Shown here piece by piece: positions 1 through 19,570 of a stretch of DNA of 49,431 nt (position 1 is its first letter; each line of letters starts with the position of its first letter). The notes below the pieces were generated by a model. That model did no database searches and was not told where the DNA came from. It worked only from the letters and a program-made list of their open reading frames with translations. Source of the stretch: a virus. The stretch lies in the IMG/VR virus record IMGVR_UViG_3300007754_000481, positions 1-49,431 of that record; one strand, 5' to 3'. The position numbers and the translations under genes are program-made.

Positions 1-329
1 TCCCTCTAGGGGTAGGCAGGTATTGAGACAGAGCGGCTGCCCTCATCGGCAAGATGACGGAGCTGGGCGTTGCCATCCCTCTAGGGGTAGGCAGGTATTG
101 AGACATCGTCACGTCCGTGCTCCCATCGCTGAAAGCCGTGTTTGCGTTGCCATCCCTCTAGGGGTAGGCAGGTATTGAGACGTCCATCCAGGGCATCCGA
201 AGCAGCGTCAAAGTAGAAGTGTTGCCATCCCTCTAGGGGTAGGCAGGTATTGAGACTCGGGGTTGGCGTTCTTCTCATAGACGGTGGAGAGGTGTTGCCA
301 TCCCTCTAGGGGTAGGCAGGTATTGAGAC
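1..329 (-). CRISPR. CRISPR array 1, at least 5 repeats and 4 spacers, cut by left edge
   Basis: Four complete 36-nt repeats lie at 69-104, 146-181, 221-256 and 294-329, and the last 29 nt of another at 1-29. They are identical where visible. Spacers are 30-68, 105-145, 182-220 and 257-293 (39, 41, 39 and 37 nt). On the plus strand the repeat begins GTTGCCATCC and ends GGTATTGAGAC. I orient the array on the minus strand: there the repeat begins GTCTCAATACC, carries a short CCC/GGG hairpin, and ends with exactly 8 nt (ATGGCAAC) after the stem, the usual 5' handle left by Cas6. The leader-like sequence shared with array 2 lies on the right, and the cas operon runs in the same direction into the array. 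The spacers have the high GC content of coding DNA; no source was identified. Confidence 0.97.
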
Positions 330-335
330 CCTTTC

Positions 336-370
336 CTCTCTCGATCCGCTTAAATAGCGGATCGAGAGAG
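336..370. repeat. Leader palindrome, 15-bp stem and TAAAT loop
   Basis: Arms 336-350 and 356-370 are perfect complements (core CTCTCGATCCGCT / AGCGGATCGAGAG) around TAAAT. The element starts 7 nt from the repeat. Array 2 has the same element at 19380-19410 with one changed base in one arm (a G:U pair if transcribed on plus, an A/C mismatch on minus). It could be a protein-binding palindrome at the integration end of the array or a hairpin in the pre-crRNA. The following T-run is too short for a convincing intrinsic terminator. Confidence 0.75.
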
Positions 371-389
371 TGGTTTTCGAGCGGTTCGA

Positions 390-410
390 TTATGCACAGG
401 GTTATCCACA
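390..410 (+). promoter_or_regulatory. Two DnaA boxes in leader 1
   Basis: TTATGCACA (390-398) and TTATCCACA (402-410) both match the DnaA box consensus TTWTNCACA. They are direct repeats 3 bp apart, so they start 12 bp apart. The identical pair with identical spacing is in leader 2. The match is seen; DnaA binding is inferred. Confidence 0.65.
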
Positions 411-478
411 GGTTGTGGAAGACTCTGGGGCTTTCAATGAACGGGGTTTCTGAAGATTTTCGGGGTCTTCAGGTTCAC

Positions 479-519
479 GCGAGCGGGCCTGGGGGTTTTG
501 CCGTCTCTGGTCCGCTCGC
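479..519 (-). terminator. Imperfect hairpin after cas6
   Basis: Arms GCGAGCGGGCC (479-489) and GGTCCGCTCGC (509-519) pair at 10 of 11 positions. An equivalent, less perfect hairpin sits at 19521-19561 after the DUF262 gene. Placed just after a stop codon on the minus strand, it may terminate or attenuate the cas transcript before the array. There is no U-tract, so the role is uncertain. Confidence 0.35.
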
Positions 520-529
520 TTGGGGTGGG

Positions 530-1120
530 CTAGCTATTCGCGACGAGCCTCATCCGGCCGGAGCCTGGGTAGAAGACACCGGCTCCCATTGACCGGAACC
601 GTCCGATCCCGGTGTTCTGGATGTGGAGGGACTGTTCGGGGGTGAGCCCGGCGAGGGTGACGGAGTAGCCCAGGAAGACCCTGCCCTTGCAGTGGAGCCC
701 GCGGCGTCGTCCGGTGGAGACCTGGACCTCGGGGCCCACGATCTGCTGGACTTCCTCCCGAAACTTGGCCTCGTTGACGATGTTGTCGAACACGACCTGT
801 CGCGAGACGAGGTGCGGGGAGGGGGTGAGGGTGACGGGGACGGCCTTCCCCAGCCCGATCATCTGTCCGCTGGCGAGGATCCATGAGCTGCCGATCGCCT
901 CCGCGGCCTCAGCCGGGAGGCCCCGGATGTGGAGGACGGAGTTGTGATCGAGCTGGATGGACCTGCCGTGGTCCCTCCTGGTTCCGCGGACGGGGGCGAT
1001 CTGGTAGTGCCCCCGGGCGTGGAGGAAGGGGAACTTCCGGCAGAGGGCGGACATGATGATGTAGCCGTTGTCCTGGGGCAGCTTCGCCCGGGACTCGATC
1101 GCGTAGGAGTAAGCGGTCAT
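530..1120 (-). CDS. cas6: Cas6 crRNA-processing endoribonuclease (Cmx6-like)
   Basis: Predicted to cut pre-crRNA at the base of the repeat hairpin, leaving 8-nt 5' handles. The 196-aa protein has the RAMP plan: an N-terminal stretch with a YIIMSALCRKFPFLH segment (residues 20-34), SVLHIRG (61-67), an SRQVVF strand, and the C-terminal glycine-rich loop GIGRFRSMGAGVFYP (171-185). This pattern matches the Cas6/Cmx6 family of Myxococcus-type systems as I know it. H34 and H38 are candidate catalytic histidines. I start at ATG 1120 because it overlaps the cas5 stop as ATGA, as cas5 does with cas7; an in-frame ATG at 1132 would add MDDP. It is the last cas gene before leader and array 1. Confidence 0.9.
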   Translation of the reverse strand: MTAYSYAIESRAKLPQDNGYIIMSALCRKFPFLHARGHYQIAPVRGTRRDHGRSIQLDHNSVLHIRGLPAEAAEAIGSSWILASGQMIGLGKAVPVTLTPSPHLVSRQVVFDNIVNEAKFREEVQQIVGPEVQVSTGRRRGLHCKGRVFLGYSVTLAGLTPEQSLHIQNTGIGRFRSMGAGVFYPGSGRMRLVANS

Positions 1121-1710
1121 CGGGTCATCCATGCGGGGTTCTTGGTGATCCGGAGGTCGAACCCTTTGAGGGTGGGTCCGTAGTTCCGGTAGCCGTAGAG
1201 GGTCTTGACAGGGAGCTGCATCTGGCTTCCGGGGACGAGCCACTGGACCTTGTCCAGGGGGTCGTCGGTCTCTCCGATCCAGGTGATGAGATCCTGGCTC
1301 TCTCCGAGATAGAGGACGCCGAAGAAGTCGTCTCGGCCCTTCTCCAGGGTCTCTCGGATCTTGTCTTCCCAGGGGCCGCGGACCTGGACGCAGTGGGAGA
1401 GGTCGTACCACTTCTCGACGTGGACGGGCCTCATGACTTCGTAGTCGTTCGGGGCCCTCTGCTGGTCCTTCTTCTTGCTCGCCCAGATCTGGGCCTGACG
1501 GAGGAGGGTCCCCCATCCGCCTGGGGGGCGGAACGCCCCGTAGCGGAACTCACCTCGGAAGGAGCCCTTCCGGGAGGCTGTGAAGGCTTCCAGGCACCCC
1601 TGCATGGTGGAGGGGGGGCAGAAGGGGTAGGAGGGGACCAGGGCGAGGAGGGGGATCTGGCCCGGAATCCGGAAGTGTCCGGAGATGGAGTCGATCCTGA
1701 GGGTAATCAT
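1117..1710 (-). CDS. cas5: Cas5, Cascade crRNA 5'-handle-binding subunit
   Basis: Expected to cap the 5' handle of the crRNA in Cascade. The 197-aa protein opens with the Cas5 signature: a beta strand, FRIPG (13-17), then SYPFCPPSTMQGCLEAF (27-43), matching the family pattern 'YPFPPPSTLLGLL'. The C-terminal part has the strand-rich look of a RAMP fold. Its ATG overlaps the cas7 stop as ATGA (1707-1710) and its own stop overlaps the cas6 start the same way, so cas7-cas5-cas6 are probably translationally coupled. The length is at the short end for Cas5. In this branch Cas6 rather than Cas5 is expected to process crRNA. Confidence 0.88.
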   Translation of the reverse strand: MITLRIDSISGHFRIPGQIPLLALVPSYPFCPPSTMQGCLEAFTASRKGSFRGEFRYGAFRPPGGWGTLLRQAQIWASKKKDQQRAPNDYEVMRPVHVEKWYDLSHCVQVRGPWEDKIRETLEKGRDDFFGVLYLGESQDLITWIGETDDPLDKVQWLVPGSQMQLPVKTLYGYRNYGPTLKGFDLRITKNPAWMTR

Positions 1711-2600
1711 CCCATCTTCCCGCGGATCTCGGAGAGGATCGAGGCGATCCCGTCGTGGACGGTCTGGTCCAGACCCATGCCGGCGACGTTGTAGGAGATC
1801 CCCAGGTTGGCTGCGCGGGCCTCCAGGGCGGAGAGGTCCACGGGGGTGTCGGGCTGCTGGTCGAGGATCAGGCCCATCCCTCCCTGTCCGGGGGACTTGT
1901 GGAACCTCCAGGCGATCGTGTTGCAGATCATGGAAGCCGACCGGGAGCTGTGGGCTCCCCCGACCTGGAGGCAGCGGAGGGAGTTGATGACCGCCTCCAC
2001 GGCGTCGCCCATGCCCTTGAGGCGGGCGAGGTTGAAGGTCATGGTGAAGGCGTAGCGGGTCCAGTGCCGCTCAAAGTGGAAGGGGGCGAGGGAGGGCTTC
2101 GGGGTGGTGTCCTTCTTCTTCCGGTTGCCGCCGTCGTCCTCGTCGTTCTCGTAGACGGTCGCCCCGGCCTTGTGCCCCTGGCAGAAGGCGATGTTGTTGT
2201 CGAAGGCGGAGCAGGAGATGGCGTCCGACACCTCCACGAGGCCCTTGGCCTTCATGGCGTGCTCGGAGGAACCCTTGCTGGAGATCATCCAGCCGAAGAT
2301 GCCGTCGTCGAACCCCTCGGGGGTGGGCGGGATGGCTTCCTTCATGGTGCTCGCCCGGTTTTCGCCGTAGACGAACCCCACGGGGTTCAGATCGGTGACG
2401 GGGACGATGTTCCGCCACATACGGCAGCCCCCGTCCTGCATGGAGTGGCGGACGGCGAACTTGATCGCCGGGCCGGAGAGGACAGTCCGGGTCTGGTTCC
2501 GGCAGGTGATCGTCTGGACGGTCTGGAGGTTGCCGCGGTTCTCACCGCGGTTGTTGGAGGCGAGCAGGGGCTCAGAGATGGCGAGGAGAGTCAGGTACAT
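1707..2600 (-). CDS. cas7: Cas7, Cascade backbone subunit (DevR/Cst2-like)
   Basis: Forms the helical backbone that holds the crRNA spacer. The 297-aa protein begins with strand MYLTLLAISEPL and then LLASNNRGENRGNLQTVQTI (12-31), followed by SGPAIKFAVRHSM. The SNNRGE...GN...Q...SGxAIKFALR pattern is typical of DevR/Cst2-type Cas7. I start at ATG 2600: it follows the cas8 stop by 41 nt and begins the conserved strand, whereas upstream in-frame codons lie inside cas8 and read through the tandem repeat at 2610-2641. No strong Shine-Dalgarno is visible, only GAGA nearby, which is odd for the most abundant Cascade subunit. Confidence 0.9.
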   Translation of the reverse strand: MYLTLLAISEPLLASNNRGENRGNLQTVQTITCRNQTRTVLSGPAIKFAVRHSMQDGGCRMWRNIVPVTDLNPVGFVYGENRASTMKEAIPPTPEGFDDGIFGWMISSKGSSEHAMKAKGLVEVSDAISCSAFDNNIAFCQGHKAGATVYENDEDDGGNRKKKDTTPKPSLAPFHFERHWTRYAFTMTFNLARLKGMGDAVEAVINSLRCLQVGGAHSSRSASMICNTIAWRFHKSPGQGGMGLILDQQPDTPVDLSALEARAANLGISYNVAGMGLDQTVHDGIASILSEIRGKMG

Positions 2601-2641: not shown

Positions 2642-4324
2642 TCAGGCGGCTTCGCTGTTCTGGTGGCTGTCCAGATCTTCCCCGCAGTCGAGGCAGAGGC
2701 GACCGGCCTCTCGCTCCTTGAGGAGGCGGGCCTTCTCCCTCTTGGCGTCGTCCGCCTTCCGCATCGCCGGGGAGCGGAAGTCCACGTCGCAGGACAGGAT
2801 GAGGAGCTGCTGGATCTCGGTGGGGTTGCGGTCGAGGGCGGCGATCAGCCAGTCGAACTCTTCCCCGGTGAGGCGGAGGCTCCCGCCAGCCTCGTTGGAG
2901 ATGGCGTTGATGGCGGCGAGGATGCCGGCCTTGTTGTGAGCCCGGTTGAGGTGGACGGCTACGGCGAACTGCTTCGCCCGCTCCCACATCCTCTGCTTCG
3001 TGCCGAACTTCTTCCGGTAGTGCTGGGCGAGCTGGTAGTACAGGGTCTTCATCTTCGCGGCGATGATTCGCTGCATGAGTCCTTCCTCGTTGTCGGGGAA
3101 CAGGTGGTGACCGACCTGCTGGATGCGGGCGCGGTCGCGTTCGTTGAAGCCCACGAAGGACTTCATCTTGGGGCTGTAGCGGTACCGGTCGTTGGTCATG
3201 CCGTCAGCGACGCCCATGAACCAGGGCAGGCCGACCCGAAGGTTGTTGAAAATCACGTCGTGGAGCGTGTCATTCCGTGTGGGGGACAGTGTCCGGATGG
3301 GGGTGCTCTTCATAGAGCGGAGCATGTCGTTTCCCGCCCCTGCGCTGAACTCCAAGAGGTCCCGGAGCATCTGGTAGATCTGGTTGTTCTCCACCTTCGC
3401 GGCGTGGGGCAGGAAGGACCCCGCCGCGACCTTCCCCCCATCGGTCTTGTAGAGGTAGGGGTAGGGCTGCCGCGGCAGGTTCATCACTGCCGCCATCGTC
3501 CAGCAGACAGCTTCTCGGGCTCCTGCGATCCGATGGACCTTGCCCTGGTCTCCGTTCCAGTGGCGGAACGCCTCTTCAGCCTGGGAGAACGTTGGGAGAT
3601 CGAGCCCGATCCCTACGGCGTCGCAGTCGCTCATTGTCCAGACGTAGGCGAGGCAGGAGAACGAAGTCAGGAAGTATTCCTGAAGGGTCAACTTCAGGGC
3701 TTCCTTGTTCCACTGGCCCAGGATGGGGTGGGAATAGGTCGATCCGGTGTATCGATCGACCGGGATCCGGCCCTTTCGCTTGGTGTCCTTCCACTTGAGG
3801 ACCGCGGGCTTCCCCGTCGTGTGGGGGGTTACGGCCAGCTCGTAGGGGGTGCCGTCTGCCCTCTTGACGCAGTCCGCCTTGCGGATCGGCTCTCCGAACT
3901 TCTGGACGTGAGCGGCGAGGAGGGCCGCCTTCTGTTGCTTGGCTGCCGGGGTGGTCCCTGGGGTCAGGGAGACAGATCGGGTAGGTCCCTTTCGCCCCTG
4001 GAAGTACCCGAGCCCCAGGTGGGCTCGGATCGTCATGTAGATGCCGGGGTTTTCCCGGTTCGTCTCGGCTCCCGGGGGGACGCGGAGGCCCGTGGACATG
4101 TCGCCCACCATGTCCGCGATCAGAGGGTTGAGGCTGTCGATATCCTTGAAGCGGAGGTCCAGGGTCTCATCGTCCAGGAACGACCACTGGAGATCCTCCG
4201 ACTGGCGGACGGCGGGGTACATGGGGTTGCCTTCGCACTGACTCAGCAGTCGGGCGAGTCCGTGGAGCCCAAGGCGAAGAGGGGTGGACGAAAGCTCGGA
4301 GAGCTTCAGGAGCCATCGGTTCAT
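2642..4324 (-). CDS. cas8: Cas8 large Cascade subunit (Cmx8/Cas8a1-like)
   Basis: Expected to recognise the PAM, unwind DNA and recruit Cas3. The 560-aa protein begins with a helix reading LLKLSELSSTPLRLGLHGLA (5-24), close to the N-terminal 'LPTAQHRAGLAGL' signature of Myxococcus-type Cas8. Position between cas3 and cas7 supports the call, since Cas8 proteins diverge rapidly. The C-terminal 50 residues hold a Lys/Glu/Arg-rich helix and one CxxC (CLDC), which may be half of a zinc site. I prefer ATG 4324 over the TTG directly before it. Its Shine-Dalgarno lies in a small hairpin at 4327-4339. Confidence 0.8.
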   Translation of the reverse strand: MNRWLLKLSELSSTPLRLGLHGLARLLSQCEGNPMYPAVRQSEDLQWSFLDDETLDLRFKDIDSLNPLIADMVGDMSTGLRVPPGAETNRENPGIYMTIRAHLGLGYFQGRKGPTRSVSLTPGTTPAAKQQKAALLAAHVQKFGEPIRKADCVKRADGTPYELAVTPHTTGKPAVLKWKDTKRKGRIPVDRYTGSTYSHPILGQWNKEALKLTLQEYFLTSFSCLAYVWTMSDCDAVGIGLDLPTFSQAEEAFRHWNGDQGKVHRIAGAREAVCWTMAAVMNLPRQPYPYLYKTDGGKVAAGSFLPHAAKVENNQIYQMLRDLLEFSAGAGNDMLRSMKSTPIRTLSPTRNDTLHDVIFNNLRVGLPWFMGVADGMTNDRYRYSPKMKSFVGFNERDRARIQQVGHHLFPDNEEGLMQRIIAAKMKTLYYQLAQHYRKKFGTKQRMWERAKQFAVAVHLNRAHNKAGILAAINAISNEAGGSLRLTGEEFDWLIAALDRNPTEIQQLLILSCDVDFRSPAMRKADDAKREKARLLKEREAGRLCLDCGEDLDSHQNSEAA

Positions 4325-4326
4325 CA

Positions 4327-4339
4327 AGAGGTGTCCTCT
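4327..4339 (-). promoter_or_regulatory. Hairpin masking the cas8 ribosome binding site
   Basis: On the minus strand AGAGG-ACA-CCTCT directly precedes the cas8 start region. The AGAGG is the only Shine-Dalgarno-like sequence there and can pair with CCTCT, which could limit cas8 translation unless ribosomes arriving from cas3 disrupt it. The stem is only 5 bp. Confidence 0.4.
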
Positions 4340-4400: not shown

Positions 4401-6809
4401 TCAGGAAGGTAGAAAACCAAGCCTGATATCGTAGGTTCCAATAGAGGAATCGACGACCAGAATTTTTCTGTGCGTCCGGCCGAGGGTTTCCAGGTAGGTC
4501 TTCTGGTCTGGTCGGAGCAGAATGGGGATGGTGAGGTGTTTGGTTTCCTCGTGATCCGGTAGCTTCTGGGCGTCTTCCGGGAGCAGGACTCGGGTGGTGT
4601 AGTCGGCGTCTCGGATCCGTCGATTTGAGGTCACCAGGAGACTGGAAAATGCGTCGCGCTGACGTGGGAAGTTCCTTGGATCTCTGTAGAAATCCAGCAG
4701 TGCTTCGTTGAGTTCGTCTTGGGAGACAGCGAGCCCGTCGAATTGTCCTATCCAGCCTCTCCAGAGGTTGAATGTGGGGAGCCAGTCGTCGTGAGCGACG
4801 TAGGGGAGCCCGTTGTCTGCCTGGGGCATGTAGAAAAAGACGTCCACGGGTCCCGTGAAGTCGTGCCGATTAGAACGACCGAGCCTCTGCGTCATGGAGC
4901 TGGGTGTGGAAATCTCAGAAAGCAAGGAGAGAGCTGATATATCCCGAGCTACCTCGGCAACCTGGGTCGTCGTGACCCGTCTTTTGTTGAGGAGATCCTG
5001 TTTGATCCTATCGCTGATCCCTCTGCGATCCCGGTCTCGGAAGCGGCTGTGGTAGACGAGGGCGTCGGGTGCCGTGATCCCGACCTGCTGGCAGCGGGCG
5101 ACGGTGTTGGTGAACCAGAGGGTCCCGGCGTGGAATTGCTGGAAGGCCTCTTTCGGACCTTTGAGGATGTGGATTCGGTATCGCGGTTTGTTGGAGGCCC
5201 GGTCAGGGTTCGTAGATGATCCCATGATGGTGGGGGCTCGCAGGGTGGGCCGGAGTCGGTCGAGCAGGTATTCGGGGAAGGTGGCTGAGAGAAACGCCTT
5301 GCGGTTCTGGGGGAACCAGTTGAGAAATCGAATCAGCCATGCCCGGGTGACGGGGTCATAGTTCTCCACTTCATCGAAGACGATCTGGCTCTTCAAGATC
5401 CAGGGGAGGTAGGCAATCGCGGAGCGTCGGAAGGCGATGAGCCCGAGCACCTGATCGATGGTGGCGAAGGTGAGGTCTCGTGATCCCTGTCGAATTCGGT
5501 GGAGGGTGTCCCGAGCTTCCCTCCTGGCGTCCGCTTCTTCTTGGGAGTTGTCTTCAGGGGTGGGGGTGTATTTGAGCAGCACCTCCCCTGCTCGGGAGTG
5601 CCGTAGGGTGTCCATCCCTTTTCGGGCGTAGTCGAGGAAGTGGTGGGTTCCGATATCCATCGTGGGGGTGCAGAAGATCATGGGGTTTTTCGGGTGACCC
5701 GAGCCCCATTGCAGAGCCCCCAGGGTCTTCCCGACCCCTGTCGCCCAGGGGAGGAAGAGGTCTCTCCCTGGTCGGAGACAGTTTTTCTGAGTGGGGGTCA
5801 GGCTCCCCTCTGGGCCTAGCCTCTGTCGGAGGATGGCTCCGAAGTCCACTTCTCGCGTGGCCCAGGTCTCGCGAATGACGCTCAGGATGGCGTCTTTCGT
5901 TTTCCGATAGGACCGATCATCCCCGGAGGCGTGGATTGATCCCAGGGTATCCGCCAGGATCGTCAGCCACTTGATCGCCCCGGAGATCGGGTCATCCTCG
6001 ATCCGATAGAAGAGGTCGTTTACTGATATCGACTGGAGCCCCTGCTCCAGTCGCCTGGGGGTCGTGAAATGGTTCCCGCCCGGCAGGTGTGGGAGATCGG
6101 GGAAGGCCGGCACCGCGAGGTCTCGGAATCCTTCAGGCAAGCTGCGGAGGACCGTGTTCATGTCACGGGCGAGCTTGTCCTGGTAGACCGGGAGCGTCTT
6201 GTATCTCCCGCGGGCCAGGATCTCTTGGGTGCTGATCGGCCGGTGGCACTTGAGGTGATGCCCGAACGCCCCGGCCAGGGCGTAGGCGAAGCCTTGCTCT
6301 CCACCCGCGATTTGAACCACCCAGGACCGGAGGGGCTCTTGATTCATCATGAGGGCGGACAGTAGCTCGTGCCGGTATGCCTGTACGTGCTTCCTGTAGC
6401 CGCTCATCCGTCTTTTCAGGCGGAGGTACCGCCGCTCCTCTTCTGGAAGCTTGAACCCGCCCTCAGGGCCCCTGAAGCTCTTGTAGGCCAGCTCCAGCCC
6501 GACCAGCATCTCTTGAAACTCTCCCCCTGCCTTCCCGAAGTCGTGACCGAGCAGGGAGAGGAGCGTCCACGCTTTGAAGTCTCGGAAGGAGCACGGCAAC
6601 TCCATCCTGGCGTGGACAGCATGGGCGAGGGAGGGATACTCCCTCTCAGCCCAATAGGGCTCGGTGAACAGCACTCCGAGGGCCCACAGGACTTCCTTGT
6701 AGTGCCAAACGAAGTTGAACCCCCGTCCGGGGCTGAAGTCCTCTCGTTCTCGTCGCCACTTGGCGAGGAGTGGACGCCGACTCAGATAGTCTTCGACAGG
6801 ACTCAGCAC
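4401..6809 (-). CDS. cas3: Cas3 HD nuclease-helicase
   Basis: Expected to be recruited by target-bound Cascade to unwind and degrade DNA. The 802-aa protein has an N-terminal HD nuclease domain: GHDFGK with H89-D90, then YRHELLSALM (145-154), GHH (183-185) and ADTLGS with D287. An SF2 helicase follows: Walker A ATGVGKT (356-362), TIDQ (450-453), Walker B FDEVENYD (478-485), SAT (508-510), the TTTQVAEVARDI motif V region (613-624) and QRLGRSNR (641-648). Motif II reads DEVE rather than the usual DExH. The start is GTG 6809, overlapping the end of orf105 by 7 nt. A 76-nt gap separates the stop from the cas8 start and may hold a weak internal promoter. Confidence 0.95.
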   Translation of the reverse strand: MLSPVEDYLSRRPLLAKWRREREDFSPGRGFNFVWHYKEVLWALGVLFTEPYWAEREYPSLAHAVHARMELPCSFRDFKAWTLLSLLGHDFGKAGGEFQEMLVGLELAYKSFRGPEGGFKLPEEERRYLRLKRRMSGYRKHVQAYRHELLSALMMNQEPLRSWVVQIAGGEQGFAYALAGAFGHHLKCHRPISTQEILARGRYKTLPVYQDKLARDMNTVLRSLPEGFRDLAVPAFPDLPHLPGGNHFTTPRRLEQGLQSISVNDLFYRIEDDPISGAIKWLTILADTLGSIHASGDDRSYRKTKDAILSVIRETWATREVDFGAILRQRLGPEGSLTPTQKNCLRPGRDLFLPWATGVGKTLGALQWGSGHPKNPMIFCTPTMDIGTHHFLDYARKGMDTLRHSRAGEVLLKYTPTPEDNSQEEADARREARDTLHRIRQGSRDLTFATIDQVLGLIAFRRSAIAYLPWILKSQIVFDEVENYDPVTRAWLIRFLNWFPQNRKAFLSATFPEYLLDRLRPTLRAPTIMGSSTNPDRASNKPRYRIHILKGPKEAFQQFHAGTLWFTNTVARCQQVGITAPDALVYHSRFRDRDRRGISDRIKQDLLNKRRVTTTQVAEVARDISALSLLSEISTPSSMTQRLGRSNRHDFTGPVDVFFYMPQADNGLPYVAHDDWLPTFNLWRGWIGQFDGLAVSQDELNEALLDFYRDPRNFPRQRDAFSSLLVTSNRRIRDADYTTRVLLPEDAQKLPDHEETKHLTIPILLRPDQKTYLETLGRTHRKILVVDSSIGTYDIRLGFLPS

Positions 6810-12567: not shown

Positions 12568-12879
12568 TCACTTGTACCAGATCCCGAAGGACCAGGAGTT
12601 GTTGTTCTCGATGTAGAGGTTCGGGTCGGTCTCCGCGAGCGTCGCGTTGATACGATCCTGGGCCTGCTGGCCCGCCCCGAAGTCGCCCTCGCAGGAGAGC
12701 AGGTCGTACCCCGCCCCGTCGTAGGTCACGAGCAGGTAGGTCCCCTTGTCCGTGACGCGAGTGTCCGCGTAGGGATCCTCGCCCTCCCACTTGGTCCCCT
12801 CGTAAACCTCCTTGTGCAGGTCGCGCCCGCGCTTCAGCTCGACCGCCGCTCTCGCTGCTCTCTTGTTCTGGGCCGACAT
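12568..12879 (-). CDS. orf103, unrecognised protein
   Basis: A 103-aa protein: a basic N-terminal helix, then a strand-rich half (TRVTDKGTYLLVTYDGAGYD) and a C terminus with ENNNSWSFGIWYK. No family recognised. AGGAGG precedes ATG 12879 and the promoter at 12902-12928 lies just upstream, making it first in the transcript that includes orf115 and the crRNA-like element. Confidence 0.8.
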   Translation of the reverse strand: MSAQNKRAARAAVELKRGRDLHKEVYEGTKWEGEDPYADTRVTDKGTYLLVTYDGAGYDLLSCEGDFGAGQQAQDRINATLAETDPNLYIENNNSWSFGIWYK

Positions 12880-13503: not shown

Positions 13504-15135
13504 ATGTGCGGCATCCTATCGGTCACAGGTTTTGATCCTTCTCAACAGGCTGAGAGAGCTTCTGAGCTACATCGGCGTCTCGGGCGACTCCAACATCGGG
13601 GGCCGGACTTCACGGGGACCTGGGAGGCTCCTGGGGCGGTTCTAGGGCATACGAGGCTGGCGATTGTTGATCCCACGAGCGGGGCTCAACCTCTGGTGAG
13701 CCCTGACGGCAAGCTGGTGTTGATCGCCAACGGTGAGATCTATAACCACGATGTTTACCGGACACGGCTCGCTCAGGATTACGACTTCCAGACGCGCTCA
13801 GATTGCGAGGTGATTCTTCCCCTATACCTCCGCTACGGGGAGGACTGCGTGAAGCACCTGGACGGGCAATTCGCCTTCGTCCTCTACGATGGGCGAGATG
13901 GGTCGGTGTTCGCAGCCAGGGACCATATGGGGATCGTCCCGTTGTACTGGAGTCAGACGGCTGACGGCGTGTGGTTCAGCTCGGAGATGAAAGCCCTCCC
14001 TTCAGGCTCCATCCAGGTGTTTCCTCCCGGACATTACTATTGTCAGAGCCAGATATCCCGTTGGTGGGAGCCCTCCTGGTTTACTCAGATGCCGGGGTAT
14101 ACGGGTCAGGGCCCTAGCCGAATGGTGCTGGAACACCTTGCGGTTAAGTTGAGGGCCTCTGTCGGGAAGCGGCTCATGGCGGACGTTCCCTGGGGAGTCC
14201 TTCTCTCTGGTGGTTTGGACTCTTCACTGGTGGCGGCTTTGGCAAACCGACCCGGGATGAAATCCTTCTCCATTGGCCTTGAGGGGTCTCCGGACCTCGC
14301 GGCGGCGGCCGTAGTAGCGAAGCACCTGGGGTCAGACCACCATGCCTTCACGTACACGGTGGAAGAGGGGATCGCAGCCCTGGAAGCCGTGATCCGAAGC
14401 ATCGAGACTTACGACGTCACGACGATCCGGGCTTCGACTCCAATGTTCTTGATGGCGAGGGAGATTCGGAAGCTCGGGGTCAAGATGGTCCTGAGCGGTG
14501 AGGGGGCTGATGAGATCTTCGGAGGCTACCTGTACTTCCACAAGGCCCCGAGTCGGGAGGAGTTTCACTGCGAGACGGTCAGGAAGCTTCAGACGCTTCA
14601 CCTGTATGATTGTCTCCGAGCCAACAAGAGCATGATGGCGTGGGGGGTGGAAGCCCGGGTGCCCTTCCTGGACCGGGCGTTTCTCGATCTGGCGATGGGG
14701 TTGGACCCGGCCTACAAAATGTCGAGTACGAGCCCCCACGGGGCTCGCATGGAGAAACACCTCCTCAGATCTGCTTTTGAGGGGCAAGGGTTGATCCCTG
14801 ATGAAGTGCTCTGGCGTCAGAAGGAGCAGTTTAGCGACGGGGTCGGCTATAGCTGGATCGACAGCTTGAAGGAGGTCGCGGACCAGCAGGTGTCTGACGA
14901 GGACTTCCAGCAGGCGGCGAGCCGCTGGCCGGTCAACACTCCTGCGACCAAGGAGGCATACTTCTACCGCTCCATCTTTCAGAAGGAGTTTCCCTCGGAG
15001 GACGCCGCGAAGACGGTCCCTGGAGGCCCCAGCGTTGCCTGTAGCACGCCGACAGCACTCGCCTGGGATAAGTCCTTCCGGGAGGCCGCGGACCCGTCAG
15101 GGAGGGCTGTAGGCGTTCACAGGGACGCCTACTAG
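13504..15135 (+). CDS. asnB: Asparagine synthetase, glutamine-hydrolysing
   Basis: Makes asparagine from aspartate, ATP and glutamine-derived ammonia. The 543-aa protein is full length for AsnB. N-terminal glutaminase: catalytic Cys2 (MCGI), R51 in HTRLAI, and NGE (76-78). C-terminal synthetase: PP-loop SGGLDSS (235-241) and GEGADEIFGGY. Both active sites look intact. It is transcribed alone on the plus strand, and its stop codon overlaps that of the convergent beta-helix gene. Phage-encoded AsnB could supply asparagine during virion protein synthesis or make amides on another acceptor; related amidotransferases cannot be excluded from motifs. Confidence 0.93.
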   Translation: MCGILSVTGFDPSQQAERASELHRRLGRLQHRGPDFTGTWEAPGAVLGHTRLAIVDPTSGAQPLVSPDGKLVLIANGEIYNHDVYRTRLAQDYDFQTRSDCEVILPLYLRYGEDCVKHLDGQFAFVLYDGRDGSVFAARDHMGIVPLYWSQTADGVWFSSEMKALPSGSIQVFPPGHYYCQSQISRWWEPSWFTQMPGYTGQGPSRMVLEHLAVKLRASVGKRLMADVPWGVLLSGGLDSSLVAALANRPGMKSFSIGLEGSPDLAAAAVVAKHLGSDHHAFTYTVEEGIAALEAVIRSIETYDVTTIRASTPMFLMAREIRKLGVKMVLSGEGADEIFGGYLYFHKAPSREEFHCETVRKLQTLHLYDCLRANKSMMAWGVEARVPFLDRAFLDLAMGLDPAYKMSSTSPHGARMEKHLLRSAFEGQGLIPDEVLWRQKEQFSDGVGYSWIDSLKEVADQQVSDEDFQQAASRWPVNTPATKEAYFYRSIFQKEFPSEDAAKTVPGGPSVACSTPTALAWDKSFREAADPSGRAVGVHRDAY

Positions 15136-15650
15136 GGGCGTCGGATGACCGTGTCCGCGTCCACGTCACCTTTCACGTCACCCCCGACGTGAACCGTCTC
15201 TCCGTCGATATCTCCCCTGACATGACCGCGGACGTTCACAGTCCCGTCGCAGTCGATATCTCCCTGTACGTCGCCCCCGACAGCTACGGACGTAGCCCGG
15301 TCGATATCCCCACGGATGGACCCGGTCACGGTGACGCCCTGAAAGGCGTCCACGTCGCCGCCGACGTTCCCGCTCACCTGAACGGCTCCCTGGGTCTCGA
15401 TATCTCCGTTAACGGAGCCCCGGACGATCAGAGTCAGGTCTCCCTGGGCGTGAACCGTCAGGTTGCCTTGAACGTCTCCGGCCACGGTACCATCCTGGTC
15501 CATCTCCAACGTCCGGTCAGGAGACTCCAGAGTTGGGGGCGCGCTGGGAGCCTCCTTATCCCCGGTCGCGGGGGTGTAGAGGGTGCCGTTCACGTAGACC
15601 CGGCCACTACGGACCTGGATGCTCACCCCATTGATGGTCACCTGAGACAT
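15132..15650 (-). CDS. Bactofilin-like beta-helix repeat protein
   Basis: A 172-aa protein. Residues 1-25 hold the lead-in VTINGVSIQVRSGRVYVNG; after a Pro-rich linker, about eight short strands repeat the pattern V-x-G-x-V-x-G-D (GDVQGN, GNVGGDV, GDVQGDI, GDVKGDV), expected to stack as a right-handed beta-helix like bactofilins and other polymer-forming proteins. It may form filaments or bind a surface; no enzyme site is seen. It is last in the rIIA-rIIB transcript, 30 nt after rIIB, with GGAG before ATG 15650. Confidence 0.75.
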   Translation of the reverse strand: MSQVTINGVSIQVRSGRVYVNGTLYTPATGDKEAPSAPPTLESPDRTLEMDQDGTVAGDVQGNLTVHAQGDLTLIVRGSVNGDIETQGAVQVSGNVGGDVDAFQGVTVTGSIRGDIDRATSVAVGGDVQGDIDCDGTVNVRGHVRGDIDGETVHVGGDVKGDVDADTVIRRP

Positions 15651-15680
15651 GCTATCTCCGAAGTAGTAGTTGCCTATGAG

Positions 15681-16829
15681 TTACTCCAGGGTCGCGAGGA
15701 TGCGATCGACCAGGGCGATCTTCCCGCCGCGGATCTTGGAAGCCCCGACGATCGTCAGGTCGTGCCTCGCGTACTTCCGGAGGTGCTGGAGGTTCTTCGT
15801 CAGGAGCACGTCCCGATCCCGGATCTCACGGAGATAGGCCCACACCGGCTCCTCCTCTTCCGGCGGAGCGGGGAGGGGGTGGGTGACCGTCGCGGCCCCC
15901 ACCTGCTCCACCGTGGGAGCCGGGGTGGAGTCACCGAGTGCGGCCTCCAGGGAAGCCAGGGGCTCGTCCAGCTCATCCTCGTCTTCGTCCGAGTCGAGGA
16001 GGTAGCCGTCGTCGTAGTCATCATCCCCCAGCTCTGGATCGAAGCCCTCCTCTTCGGGCTCGCCGGGCCCCGCCGGAGTGCTCAGGCTCTCGATCTCCGG
16101 GATCTCCTCGGAGGGCTGGAACAGATCGTCCAGCTTGTCGCCATAGTTCCCGACCACCTTGTAGGCGCAGAGTCGCATCTTCCGGTGGCTCGCGTCGTAG
16201 GGGACGCAGACCACGTTCTCGGGATCCACTTCGCAGATCACGACCCTGCCCTGAGCGAACCCCTGGGCGTAGGACAGATCCCCGACATGGAGCCCCTCAT
16301 GACAGGGGGTCCGGGGATCATCCGAGACCCGGTTGCGGGGGTAGGTCACCTCCGCCCCCGGGCGGTTGGAGATCTTCCCCGTGTGGCAGTCGGTGTAGTC
16401 CGCCTTGACACCCTTGTAGGCGAGGAAGGTCCCCCTCTTCGTGATCGGAATCCCGCAGTGCTGAAGGAAGGTGAAGAGCTGCTGGACGGACCTGTAGGAG
16501 GGGTTCCGGCTGAGCCGCTGGATGAAGCGGAACATGGGGTCGATGCAGGTCCCCTGCCCCATCATGGCTACGATCCGCTTGTTGAGGTCAGCGGGGATAG
16601 GGTAGCCCTGGTACTGGATGTGGTTGTCCTTCATCTTGAAGCCAGCCATCGCCGCCCAATGGGCGATCTTCGCGGCGGGGGACAGCAGATCCTTGATACC
16701 ATCCCACTTCTTCTCCAGAACCATCCGGCAAGCCCGATCGTAGTCCGGGTTCTCCTTCAAGACCGTGAAGGTCTCACCGTTGTCCAGGGTTACCGTCAGC
16801 GAGGCGTCTCTCAGAGAGTAGTAAGGCAT
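15681..16829 (-). CDS. rIIB: rIIB-like protein
   Basis: The 382-aa protein matches T4 rIIB in its conserved core: CGIPITKRGTFLAYKGVK (125-142), DYTDCHTGKISNRPG (144-158), CHEGLHVG (176-183) and VVICEVDPENVVCVPYD (about 196-212). T4 rIIA and rIIB together overcome RexAB exclusion and associate with membrane and DNA, mechanism unresolved. Here the N terminus is about 100 residues and a long acidic linker (Asp/Glu-rich, about 240-320) precedes a C-terminal helical segment resembling a short SAP/HTH-like tail. Its ATG overlaps the rIIA stop as TGATG. Confidence 0.9.
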   Translation of the reverse strand: MPYYSLRDASLTVTLDNGETFTVLKENPDYDRACRMVLEKKWDGIKDLLSPAAKIAHWAAMAGFKMKDNHIQYQGYPIPADLNKRIVAMMGQGTCIDPMFRFIQRLSRNPSYRSVQQLFTFLQHCGIPITKRGTFLAYKGVKADYTDCHTGKISNRPGAEVTYPRNRVSDDPRTPCHEGLHVGDLSYAQGFAQGRVVICEVDPENVVCVPYDASHRKMRLCAYKVVGNYGDKLDDLFQPSEEIPEIESLSTPAGPGEPEEEGFDPELGDDDYDDGYLLDSDEDEDELDEPLASLEAALGDSTPAPTVEQVGAATVTHPLPAPPEEEEPVWAYLREIRDRDVLLTKNLQHLRKYARHDLTIVGASKIRGGKIALVDRILATLE

Positions 16830-18982
16830 CAGGAATCCTTGTTGTCCATCAGGGTGATGTACTCCATCCAGGGCTCCGGGTTCTGAGCGATGACCTTGAG
16901 GTCACTCCGGATGGCGAGGAGGGGGTACTGAATGAGAATCTTGCGGAGCTTGGCGTGGTGAGGGTAGTTGCGAACAAGCTTACGACCCTCCTTGGTGTGT
17001 TGGTACAGCATCACGAGCCTGTTTACCTGCTGCTTCTCTGCCGCGGGCAGAGCCTTCCACAGGTCGTAGTCGTCGAGGATGAGGCGACAGTAGCGGGCGA
17101 TGGTGTGACGCTGCCCGACAGGATGCTCCTTGAACAGCTCTCGGACCGCCCGGAAATGCTTCCTCTGCCACCGGAAGAGTTCCCCCACCCGCCGGGCTCG
17201 GCACAGATCGGAGATGTTGTCAGGGGCTTCAGACTCCAGAAAGTCTGTCATCCATTTCTGGAGGTCTACCCCTTGACACTGCTCCACGACCATTTCAATC
17301 GTCACCGGATCCCGGTCCAGCGTCTTCATCCCGTAGATAGGGGTGGGCGACCGACCAGCCGCCATCTCGATGGACCTGATGGCTCGGATGATACTGTAGA
17401 AGTTGCTCCCGAAGCCGCGGGGGTAGAAGTGGCTCAGGACCACCGCGATACTCCCCGGCTCGATATCGTCCAGGTCTTCGACGATGCTCCAGTTGGCAGA
17501 TCGGCTCCGGCCCGGGTCATGGGTGCTGGTGAGCTTGAACCAGCGAGCCTTGTGCTTCGGGTTGAAGGTCCGGGAGGTGGCAGACCGCGTCTTGGGGATC
17601 CTCTTCATCTCCGAGGTCCGAAGGATCGGGATGCCCTCCAACCCCTTCAGGCGGAGACGCTCCTGAAGCTCCGCCTGGACGTCCAGAAGAGAGTAGCCCT
17701 TGGCGACGATGACGACCCTCTCCGGGGTGCCGGTGTCCACGAAGCGGGACACCGGCTTGAGGCTGTCGTGGACGATGATCCGAGTCATCTCCCCGATCCG
17801 GATCTTGAAGTCATCCGACAGCGTGATGGAGTTGCGGTACCTCCCGCCTTGTAGCTTCCGGAGGTGGAACGTCTTGGGCTTGTCGTAGGTGACCTTCCCG
17901 TCCGTCAGGACCGGCTCCCCGTCGTTGTTGATGACTTCACCCGTGAACATCTTCACGATAGGACTATTCAGCCCGTCAGCCTCCTCAGGCCACGGGAGAG
18001 CCCCCGCTTGTGACTTCCACTGGAGGAGGTTCAGCCGCCGCTCCCAGGGAGATCGAGAGGTGTCCAGGGCGATCTCCCTGGCCTCCCCCACGAAGTGCAT
18101 GAGGGTATCCCAGGCGGCCCGGCGGATCCGCTTCCGGGTCTTCTTCGTGAACTTCAACCCTTCCCGGTTCGGGGCAATGTCCACCTCCCCGATGGTGAAC
18201 ATGAACACGCCCGAGGACATTCGGATGGAGGTCTCCAGTCGGGGACCCACGATCCCAGCGAGTAGCTCTCGGTCGATCACATAGGGGACACCACCCATCA
18301 CCGCGAGCCACTCCGGCTCCTCAGGGAGGATCGCCCCCAGGTCGCTGGTGAGCCCCGTCACGGGCTCGGGGAGATCGATGTTGATCTCCGGCTGGGGGTT
18401 CACCCAGCGGAAGAGGAAGCAAGCCTCTCGGTGGAAGTGCGGGACCTCTTCCTGAGGGACCGTCGCTCGGATCTCCAGACCCGTCTCATCCTCGCAGGGG
18501 GACTCATGGACTTTGTCCAACATCCCCATGTCCGACTCGTCGAGGTAGGCGATATAGACGGTCTTCACCCCGTTGAACCAGGAAGTGACCTGGAAGGAGT
18601 CTGTCAGCGAGAACGCCGCCTTGCTCCCGATGCCCATCATCCCGTGCTGGTCGTTCGTCTCTCGCTTCGTGCTCGCCCCGTACTGAGAAAACACGGCGTA
18701 CATGTTCTCCTCAGACAACCCCGGACCCCAATCCCGGACCACCATGATCGGGGAGATCTCCGTGGGGAGGACGACCTTGACCGGACGATCAGGAATACCC
18801 GCCTCCACATGAGCGTCAGCTCCATTGGAGTGGTACTCCCGCAGCAAGGCCCGAGCCTTGTTCGAGTACAGGTCGCGGAGGAGCGACGCCACATAGGCGA
18901 GGTTCTCCCGAGAGATGCCGAAAGCCCCGCGGCGAAGGGGAGGTGAGGTTTCAGCGTGTCGTCGAATGTTCTCAGGAATCAA
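16829..18982 (-). CDS. rIIA: rIIA-like GHKL ATPase
   Basis: A 717-aa protein with a GHKL ATPase domain: N box EYHSNGADAH (49-58), G1 box DWGPGL (84-89) and G2 box GMMGIGSKAAF (114-124), followed by a transducer-like region, as in T4 rIIA. The long C-terminal part is basic and helical. I choose TTG 18982: it lies 25 nt after the CGTATA box at 19007-19012 and 8 nt after GAGGG. Longer readings would start upstream of or within the promoter. It is directly followed by rIIB, as in T4. Its promoter abuts the decayed end of CRISPR array 2. Confidence 0.88.
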   Translation of the reverse strand: MIPENIRRHAETSPPLRRGAFGISRENLAYVASLLRDLYSNKARALLREYHSNGADAHVEAGIPDRPVKVVLPTEISPIMVVRDWGPGLSEENMYAVFSQYGASTKRETNDQHGMMGIGSKAAFSLTDSFQVTSWFNGVKTVYIAYLDESDMGMLDKVHESPCEDETGLEIRATVPQEEVPHFHREACFLFRWVNPQPEINIDLPEPVTGLTSDLGAILPEEPEWLAVMGGVPYVIDRELLAGIVGPRLETSIRMSSGVFMFTIGEVDIAPNREGLKFTKKTRKRIRRAAWDTLMHFVGEAREIALDTSRSPWERRLNLLQWKSQAGALPWPEEADGLNSPIVKMFTGEVINNDGEPVLTDGKVTYDKPKTFHLRKLQGGRYRNSITLSDDFKIRIGEMTRIIVHDSLKPVSRFVDTGTPERVVIVAKGYSLLDVQAELQERLRLKGLEGIPILRTSEMKRIPKTRSATSRTFNPKHKARWFKLTSTHDPGRSRSANWSIVEDLDDIEPGSIAVVLSHFYPRGFGSNFYSIIRAIRSIEMAAGRSPTPIYGMKTLDRDPVTIEMVVEQCQGVDLQKWMTDFLESEAPDNISDLCRARRVGELFRWQRKHFRAVRELFKEHPVGQRHTIARYCRLILDDYDLWKALPAAEKQQVNRLVMLYQHTKEGRKLVRNYPHHAKLRKILIQYPLLAIRSDLKVIAQNPEPWMEYITLMDNKDS

Positions 18983-19006
18983 TGGGCCAGCCCTCGTGTC
19001 CCCCCC

Positions 19007-19033
19007 TATACGCCCCGCCCTCAAAAAGTTACC
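19007..19033 (-). promoter_or_regulatory. Promoter of rIIA-rIIB operon (GGTAA/CGTATA class)
   Basis: On the minus strand GGTAACTTTTT begins 21 nt before CGTATA. It follows the last decayed repeat of array 2 by only about 4 nt. Confidence 0.75.
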
Positions 19034-19037
19034 GCTA

Positions 19038-19073
19038 TTCCCATCCTCTGAAGAGGTCAACAGGCAACGGAGA
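19038..19073 (-). repeat. Strongly decayed CRISPR repeat next to rIIA promoter
   Basis: Ungapped alignment to the array 2 repeat gives 23 matches in 36, and 21 in the first 27 plus-strand positions. The minus strand reads GACCTCTTCAGAGGATGGGAA against GACCTCCTAGGAGGATGGCAA in the array, so the hairpin is kept with compensating change (CCTCT/AGAGG). It marks the leader-distal end of array 2. Confidence 0.6.
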
Positions 19074-19108: not shown

Positions 19109-19371
19109 CTTCCCATCCTAGGAGGTCGGCAGGTATTGAGACGGCCTGTCAAGAGCGGGAAGTCCCGGGATGCTTGGACCTCTTGCCATCCTCCTAGGAG
19201 GTCGGCAGGTATTGAGACCATCGTGCTATTCCCGGGGATCACCACCTCATCGAGCACTTGCCATCCTCCTAGGAGGTCGGCAGGTATTGAGACCTCCTCC
19301 TTAACCACGTCTTCGGTGATCCCAGGCCGGGAGTCTTGCCATCCTCCTAGGAGGTCGGCAGGTATTGAGAC
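19109..19371 (-). CRISPR. CRISPR array 2: one degenerate and three good repeats, three spacers
   Basis: Repeats of 37 nt lie at 19182-19218, 19257-19293 and 19335-19371. A degenerate copy at 19109-19142 lacks 3 nt in the hairpin; a further decayed copy lies at 19038-19073. Spacers are 19143-19181, 19219-19256 and 19294-19334 (39, 38, 41 nt). The repeat shares both ends with array 1 but its hairpin is CCTC-CTAG-GAGG, then 8 nt ATGGCAAG on the minus strand. Degenerate repeats on the left and the shared leader on the right set the direction. No cas gene adjoins it; Cas6 of the operon could process it. Confidence 0.96.
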
Positions 19372-19570
19372 CCTGGGTTCTCTCGATCTGCTTAAATAGC
19401 GGATCGAGAGGGTAGTTTTCGAGCGGGTTACTTATGCACAGGGTTATCCACAGGTTGTGGACGCCTCCGGGGCTGTCAAAGATCTCAATTCTCAAAGGAA
19501 TCTGGAGGTTTACCCTGCCTGCGAGCGCCCCCTGGGGTTTTGTCGCCTCGGGACCGCTCGCGGGAGGTTT
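19372..19570 (-). promoter_or_regulatory. Leader of CRISPR array 2
   Basis: It lies between the array and the DUF262 gene and has no supported gene. It shares with leader 1 the palindrome (19380-19410), GTTTTCGAGCGG, the double DnaA box plus GGTTGTGGA, GGGGCT, and an imperfect GCGAGCG...CCGCTCGC hairpin (19521-19561). Overall layout and length (199 versus 200 nt) are the same, indicating duplication of a leader-array unit. Confidence 0.8.
19432..19452 (+). promoter_or_regulatory. Two DnaA boxes in leader 2
   Basis: TTATGCACA (19432-19440) and TTATCCACA (19444-19452), 3 bp apart, identical in sequence and spacing to leader 1 and flanked by the same GGTTGTGGA. Confidence 0.65.

Follow-up and report, generated by a model that had tools for sequence, protein, structure and literature searches.

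An identical double DnaA box in the CRISPR leaders of a virus and its possible part in array transcription

Double DnaA boxes and CRISPR loci closest to the viral system

In vivo, E. coli DnaA mostly occupies box pairs with 2–3 bp in between, according to the available part of PMC11317965, and both boxes as well as this spacing are needed. The double boxes described there upstream of polA, purH and nrdA lie head to tail, 3 bp apart, as they do in the leaders reported here. The polA site, TTATGCACA-aag-TTATCCACA, even matches the leader pair in its two 9-mers, their order and their spacing. The leader pair differs from this E. coli double box in its location, which is the CRISPR leader of a phage, in its spacer, which is GGG and not AAG, and in the inverted half-site that follows it.

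Phages of Vibrio cholerae, according to the available part of PMC5665941, likewise have both cas genes and arrays in their genomes, but their system is different from the one reported here. The closest named relatives of the phage Cas3 and Cas6 (25–30% identity) belong to type I-B (type I-MYXAN) loci of cyanobacterial plasmids, whose repeats are unlike those of the phage and several of which contain cas1 and cas2; in the phage records, Cas1 was searched for and not found. The double DnaA box was absent from all nine plasmid loci with related cas genes, six of which show arrays. Thus, the cas system does not need the pair, which seems to be a trait of these phage leaders. To our knowledge, little is known about the switching-on of phage-borne CRISPR arrays.

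The two arrays, their leaders and the paired boxes

The window, i.e., the whole stretch of 49,431 bases that was analyzed, contains two CRISPR arrays on the - strand. Array 1 (1..329) is cut by the end of the record and shows 5 repeat ends. A type I-B-like operon runs leftward into its leader, with cas3 (4401..6809), a presumed cas8 (2642..4327, named from its position, without a family match), a DevR-like cas7 (1707..2600), a type I-B-like cas5 (1117..1710) and cas6 (530..1132), all on the - strand; cas3, cas5, cas6 and cas7 were recognized by family matches. The assignment to type I-B is based on these four genes together with the arrays, some of the NCBIfam matches lying below their cut-offs and cas8 being unrecognized. 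Array 2 (about 19110..19371) comprises 4 repeats related to that of array 1 and has its own leader, with an rIIA gene to one side and a GmrSD_N-type gene to the other. Homologues of both rIIA and rIIB adjoin this array (15681–19060).

The leader of array 1 (W1, 330..529, - strand) extends from the first repeat to the cas6 stop, and that of array 2 (W2, 19372..19570, - strand) from the first repeat to the stop of the GmrSD_N-type gene. The first-pass annotation had reported an identical pair of DnaA boxes with 3-bp spacing in both, and this was borne out: TTATGCACA-GGG-TTATCCACA occurs on the + strand at 390–410 (boxes at 390..398 and 402..410) and at 19432–19452 (boxes at 19432..19440 and 19444..19452). 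On the strand of the arrays, where TTATGCACA reads TGTGCATAA, the pair becomes TGTGGATAA-CCC-TGTGCATAA and lies 61–81 bp from the first repeat. In each leader, and in the related records described below, it corresponds to the E. coli definition of a double DnaA box, with 8/9 and 9/9 matches, the same direction and 3 bp in between. The consensus TTATNCACA is recognized by DnaA across most bacteria. The four leader boxes are the only TTATNCACA sites of the window, and 100 dinucleotide shuffles gave a mean of 0.19 sites and never four; chance was therefore rejected as the origin of the boxes. No further double box was present in the window or in the related records G001 and G003, even under a relaxed definition (match sum of at least 15/18, spacing of 2–3).

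Searching viral contigs with the repeat pattern returned three records (G001, G002 and G003) of one phage type. Two of them represent the same phage, being identical at 41,265 bases, and the third shows 99.84% identity to it over 35 kb; the three were therefore counted as a single independent leader (G1). The identical pair is found in the leader of each record (70.7, 41.3 and 84.4 kb), and it accounts for both TTATNCACA sites of the whole record. The DNA that the window shares with G001 and G003 is confined to array and leader; likewise, the open frames of the window of at least 90 residues have counterparts only over array and leader, apart from one weak match (38% over 50 residues). A wider repeat pattern matched 64 stretches of viral contigs, of which 3 belong to this leader family and the other 61 have unlike repeats, and in species genomes the repeat pattern gave 8 matches, each of them the only matching unit of its stretch. 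Comparison of the leader and array 1 with named phages gave no match, Cas7 and Cas3 searches of viral contigs gave no relative, and searches toward the virus host gave distant kin only.

W1, W2 and G1, as three independent leaders, were aligned over 206 columns, of which 131 are invariant. The longest invariant run measures 29 bp (390–418 in W1, 19432–19460 in W2) and consists of the boxes and CCACAACC, including the inverted, degenerate half-site TTGTGG that ends it on the + strand (413..418 and 19455..19460). The pair is thus within the best-kept stretch of the leader, and conservation exceeds the two 9-mers. A run of 29 columns was reached in 1 of 20,000 shuffles of the columns of the whole alignment, and in 29 of 20,000 shuffles confined to the 131 proximal columns, a better-conserved background. 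Shorter invariant runs were those of 21 and 10 columns in a palindrome, 12 in CCGCTCGAAAAC and two of 7 in a leader-distal inverted repeat. Pairwise identity of the leaders is 72–77% overall; for W1 and W2, it is 72% over the 206 columns and 79% over the 131 repeat-proximal columns. The earlier description of the leaders as otherwise diverged was consequently overstated, the palindrome and the CCGCTCGAAAAC block being conserved too.

The palindrome adjoins the first repeat and has 15-bp arms and a 5-base loop (336..370 in W1; 19380..19410, with one arm change, in W2). Since its conservation comes close to that of the boxes, these are perhaps not the leader's main element. As RNA of the array strand, the palindrome region folds with −31.7 kcal/mol in W1 and −18.6 kcal/mol in W2 and G1; the arm change of the latter two breaks a pair in this RNA but leaves a U-G pair in the opposite-strand RNA, which hints at a + strand hairpin, or the palindrome may simply be a DNA operator. 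It was flagged as a possible terminator on the + strand in W1 and the relative, and not in W2. The leader-distal inverted repeat CGAGCGG...CCGCTCG (479..519 and 19521..19561) keeps its arms while its inner bases vary, and a third CCGCTCG is located between boxes and palindrome.

According to the first-pass annotation, related leaders retaining the palindrome but lacking the boxes would speak against its reading. A search with the palindrome core returned 5 contigs: three leaders, all with the pair, and L126 and L127, two near-copies that lack this array and in which the hairpin has unrelated, A+T-rich surroundings. No palindrome-bearing leader without boxes was thus found among the three independent leaders. 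A further comparison is offered by the 485-kb huge phage LR745208.1, two proteins of which, from a presumed tail region, are 37–44% identical to proteins of the window. Its 3 boxes are all single, without any pair. A stretch resembling the repeat, with 2 mismatches, occurs once and has no further unit beside it, and a search for Cas3 gave no match. From this one phage, without array and without pair, the boxes seem to track the array and not the phage backbone.

Some features of G001 concern the array itself. At 13900–15800 (L140), it decays away from the leader into about 15 or more degenerate repeats with uneven spacers. Also, single units resembling the CRISPR repeat are found at about 12596–12632 and 15537–15573 (L139), each some 25 bases downstream of a tRNA-Leu gene (gag at 12658–12746, tag at 15598–15685). 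They have the orientation of the array repeats, and the stretch between tRNA and repeat is conserved; possibly, they are isolated repeats that serve a separate role.

DnaA binding and the candidate roles of the pair

For boxes starting with TTAT, the available part of PMC5835720 ranks C as the best fifth base, followed by A or G and lastly by T. This preference, combined with the boxes, order and spacing shared with the polA site, makes binding of DnaA to the leader pair likely. The proposal that the boxes are DnaA sites is also well supported by the sequence in other respects, since the pair is exact, has the preferred 3-bp spacing, is conserved and is exclusive to the leaders. We therefore consider that host DnaA quite probably occupies the pair.

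The invariant block might nevertheless serve another factor, as a binding site or as a promoter, and resemble a double box only secondarily. Invariance does cover the spacer, the half-site and CCACAACC as well as the boxes, and the GG and GC of the block lie at sigma-54 spacing. A WYL-domain gene was found near the cas genes in three of the nine related plasmid loci, and such systems can thus have a regulator of their own. However, 297 sigma-54-like sites of equal quality were counted in the window, and a sigma-54 promoter was rejected for this reason. Accident is also an unlikely source of two near-perfect boxes with the spacing that DnaA prefers. We hold a different factor to be rather unlikely.

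The cores of E. coli DARS1 and DARS2 resemble the leaders in having a 3-bp-spaced pair and an opposed third element. Double boxes are present at datA and DARS, and with the inverted half-site recalling the opposed box of the DARS cores, the leader boxes might titrate or reactivate host DnaA and merely be placed in the leader. In the DARS cores, however, the opposed box is 5 bp away and has 8/9 matches, whereas the leaders contain only the TTGTGG half-site 2–3 bp away; in the absence of an opposed full box at DARS spacing, membership of this group was rejected. Moreover, two sites per fragment are few, and titration leaves unexplained why the sites follow the arrays. Such a role appears very unlikely.

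It had also been suggested that the boxes are replication elements carried with the leader; they would then be an origin or a fork-assembly site. DnaA boxes are a hallmark of origins and those of the leaders are the only ones in these records; in addition, the peak of cumulative skew in G001 (37,510) is less than 2 kb from its leader (35,861). The skew check thus gave a peak near one leader, but no switch was seen at the W2 site and the slopes beside the leader have opposite signs in the window and G003. The neighbourhood is not A+T-rich (flanks of 33–47% A+T), there are two boxes only, and the pair is present twice, 19 kb apart, in one fragment. The related phage LR745208.1 has no pair, as stated above, and a DnaA C-terminal domain was not found in the four records, i.e., the window and G001–G003. 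An oriC-like role was rejected on flanks, skew and LR745208.1, and these disfavour the earlier suggestion as a whole, so that we regard it as highly improbable.

Host DnaA had further been proposed to control either expression or integration of the arrays. For integration, the block would be an architectural site at which DnaA, or an overlapping IHF or HU, bends the leader so that host Cas1-Cas2 can dock at the leader-repeat junction. Bending of the leader by IHF is needed for integration in type I-F, according to the available part of PMC12259127, and a 12/13 IHF-like match overlaps the second box in all three leaders. The leader-proximal spacers of G001 and G003 differ in spite of 99.84% identity elsewhere in the contigs, which suggests turnover. 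On the other hand, the window contains 11 such 12/13 matches, 9 of them outside the leaders, and no report of DnaA in integration was found in the literature search. Cas1 was not found in the four records, all of them fragments, so integration would need other enzymes. Integration thus drew no positive evidence for a part of DnaA and we consider it quite unlikely, while control of expression is plausible.

Transcription is then the best remaining role, because the others were eliminated and because of the analogy with E. coli. In the available part of PMC11317965, polA is a positively regulated target of DnaA and other genes are regulated negatively, and bound DnaA forms a roadblock for RNA polymerase. 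By the same logic, host DnaA would bind the leader pair and regulate transcription of the array, either as a repressor or roadblock, or as an activator of a promoter nearer the repeat. As a repressor or roadblock, it would act at boxes that follow a conserved TTGA(C/A)A at a distance of 21 bp and that are also, in W1 and W2, downstream of a same-strand gene. The supply of crRNA would thereby depend on the amount of host DnaA or on its state.

The weak candidate promoter signals of the leaders could fit either version. The TTGA(C/A)A hexamer is located at about −108 from the repeat in all three leaders, as TTGAAA in W1 (432..437, - strand) and as TTGACA in W2 (19474..19479, - strand) and the relative, without a good −10. 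If this is a true promoter signal, the start region is covered by the boxes, and repression would follow. The sequence TCGAAA-18-TATTTA at −51/−27 is identical in all three leaders and matches only 7/12 positions; if this one is real, the boxes are just upstream, which would allow activation. The possible −10 region that had been reported to overlap the boxes was not upheld, as CATAAT in W1 is CATAAG in W2 and the relatives, and a sigma-70 promoter scan gave 0 sites in each of the three leaders. We judge regulation of array transcription by DnaA bound 61–81 bp from the first repeat to be evenly poised, and the complete explanation, binding followed by regulation, to have about as much in its favour as against it. 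A literature search, made largely among papers outside subscription, found nothing on DnaA sites in CRISPR leaders.

Double boxes in phages at large

The pair pattern was found in at least 120 stretches of viral contigs, as compared with 29 for the reversed pattern. Among the 120 matches listed, which are a sample with relatives kept in, 91 have the pair outside open reading frames called by a simple ORF caller, compared with 24.6% of random points, and 67 of these 91 intergenic pairs have a called ORF on both sides. The pair combined with an inverted TTGTGG occurs in 16 viral contigs, of which 13 are outside this leader family. None of the 120 matches listed has a CRISPR-like array within 3 kb; the array-like flag of one of them (L020) was false, the repeated word being the DnaA box itself. 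Double boxes thus seem to be common in phages as a non-coding element, for which a CRISPR leader is an unusual location.

Two motifs were observed in the vicinity of these boxes. In 9 of the 120 listed loci (L003–L122), some of which are related, the double box has GGCGTGTCG or the complementary sequence no more than 120 bases away, compared with 60 of 6000 random places. A longer motif, in which the double box is followed by GAT(A/T)AATCTTACTGAT, is found in L008, L018, L021, L032, L039, L045, L100, L105, L116 and others.

A paired DnaA site in the leaders of these arrays suggests a tie between the CRISPR memory of this large bacterial virus and the replication machinery of its host. We tentatively put forward, as possible though somewhat doubtful, that host DnaA could be the switch of the phage arrays, its occupancy gating the production of crRNA and the attack on rivals being timed to the replication state of the host or to dilution of DnaA among numerous phage copies, and that the boxes could belong to a widespread regulatory code of phages, the leaders being one case of it. 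If this is true, a host replication initiator acting as regulator would link phage-phage conflict to the host cell cycle. Also, the viral enrichment in non-coding double boxes would make it possible to read from sequence how DnaA is sensed or used by phages.
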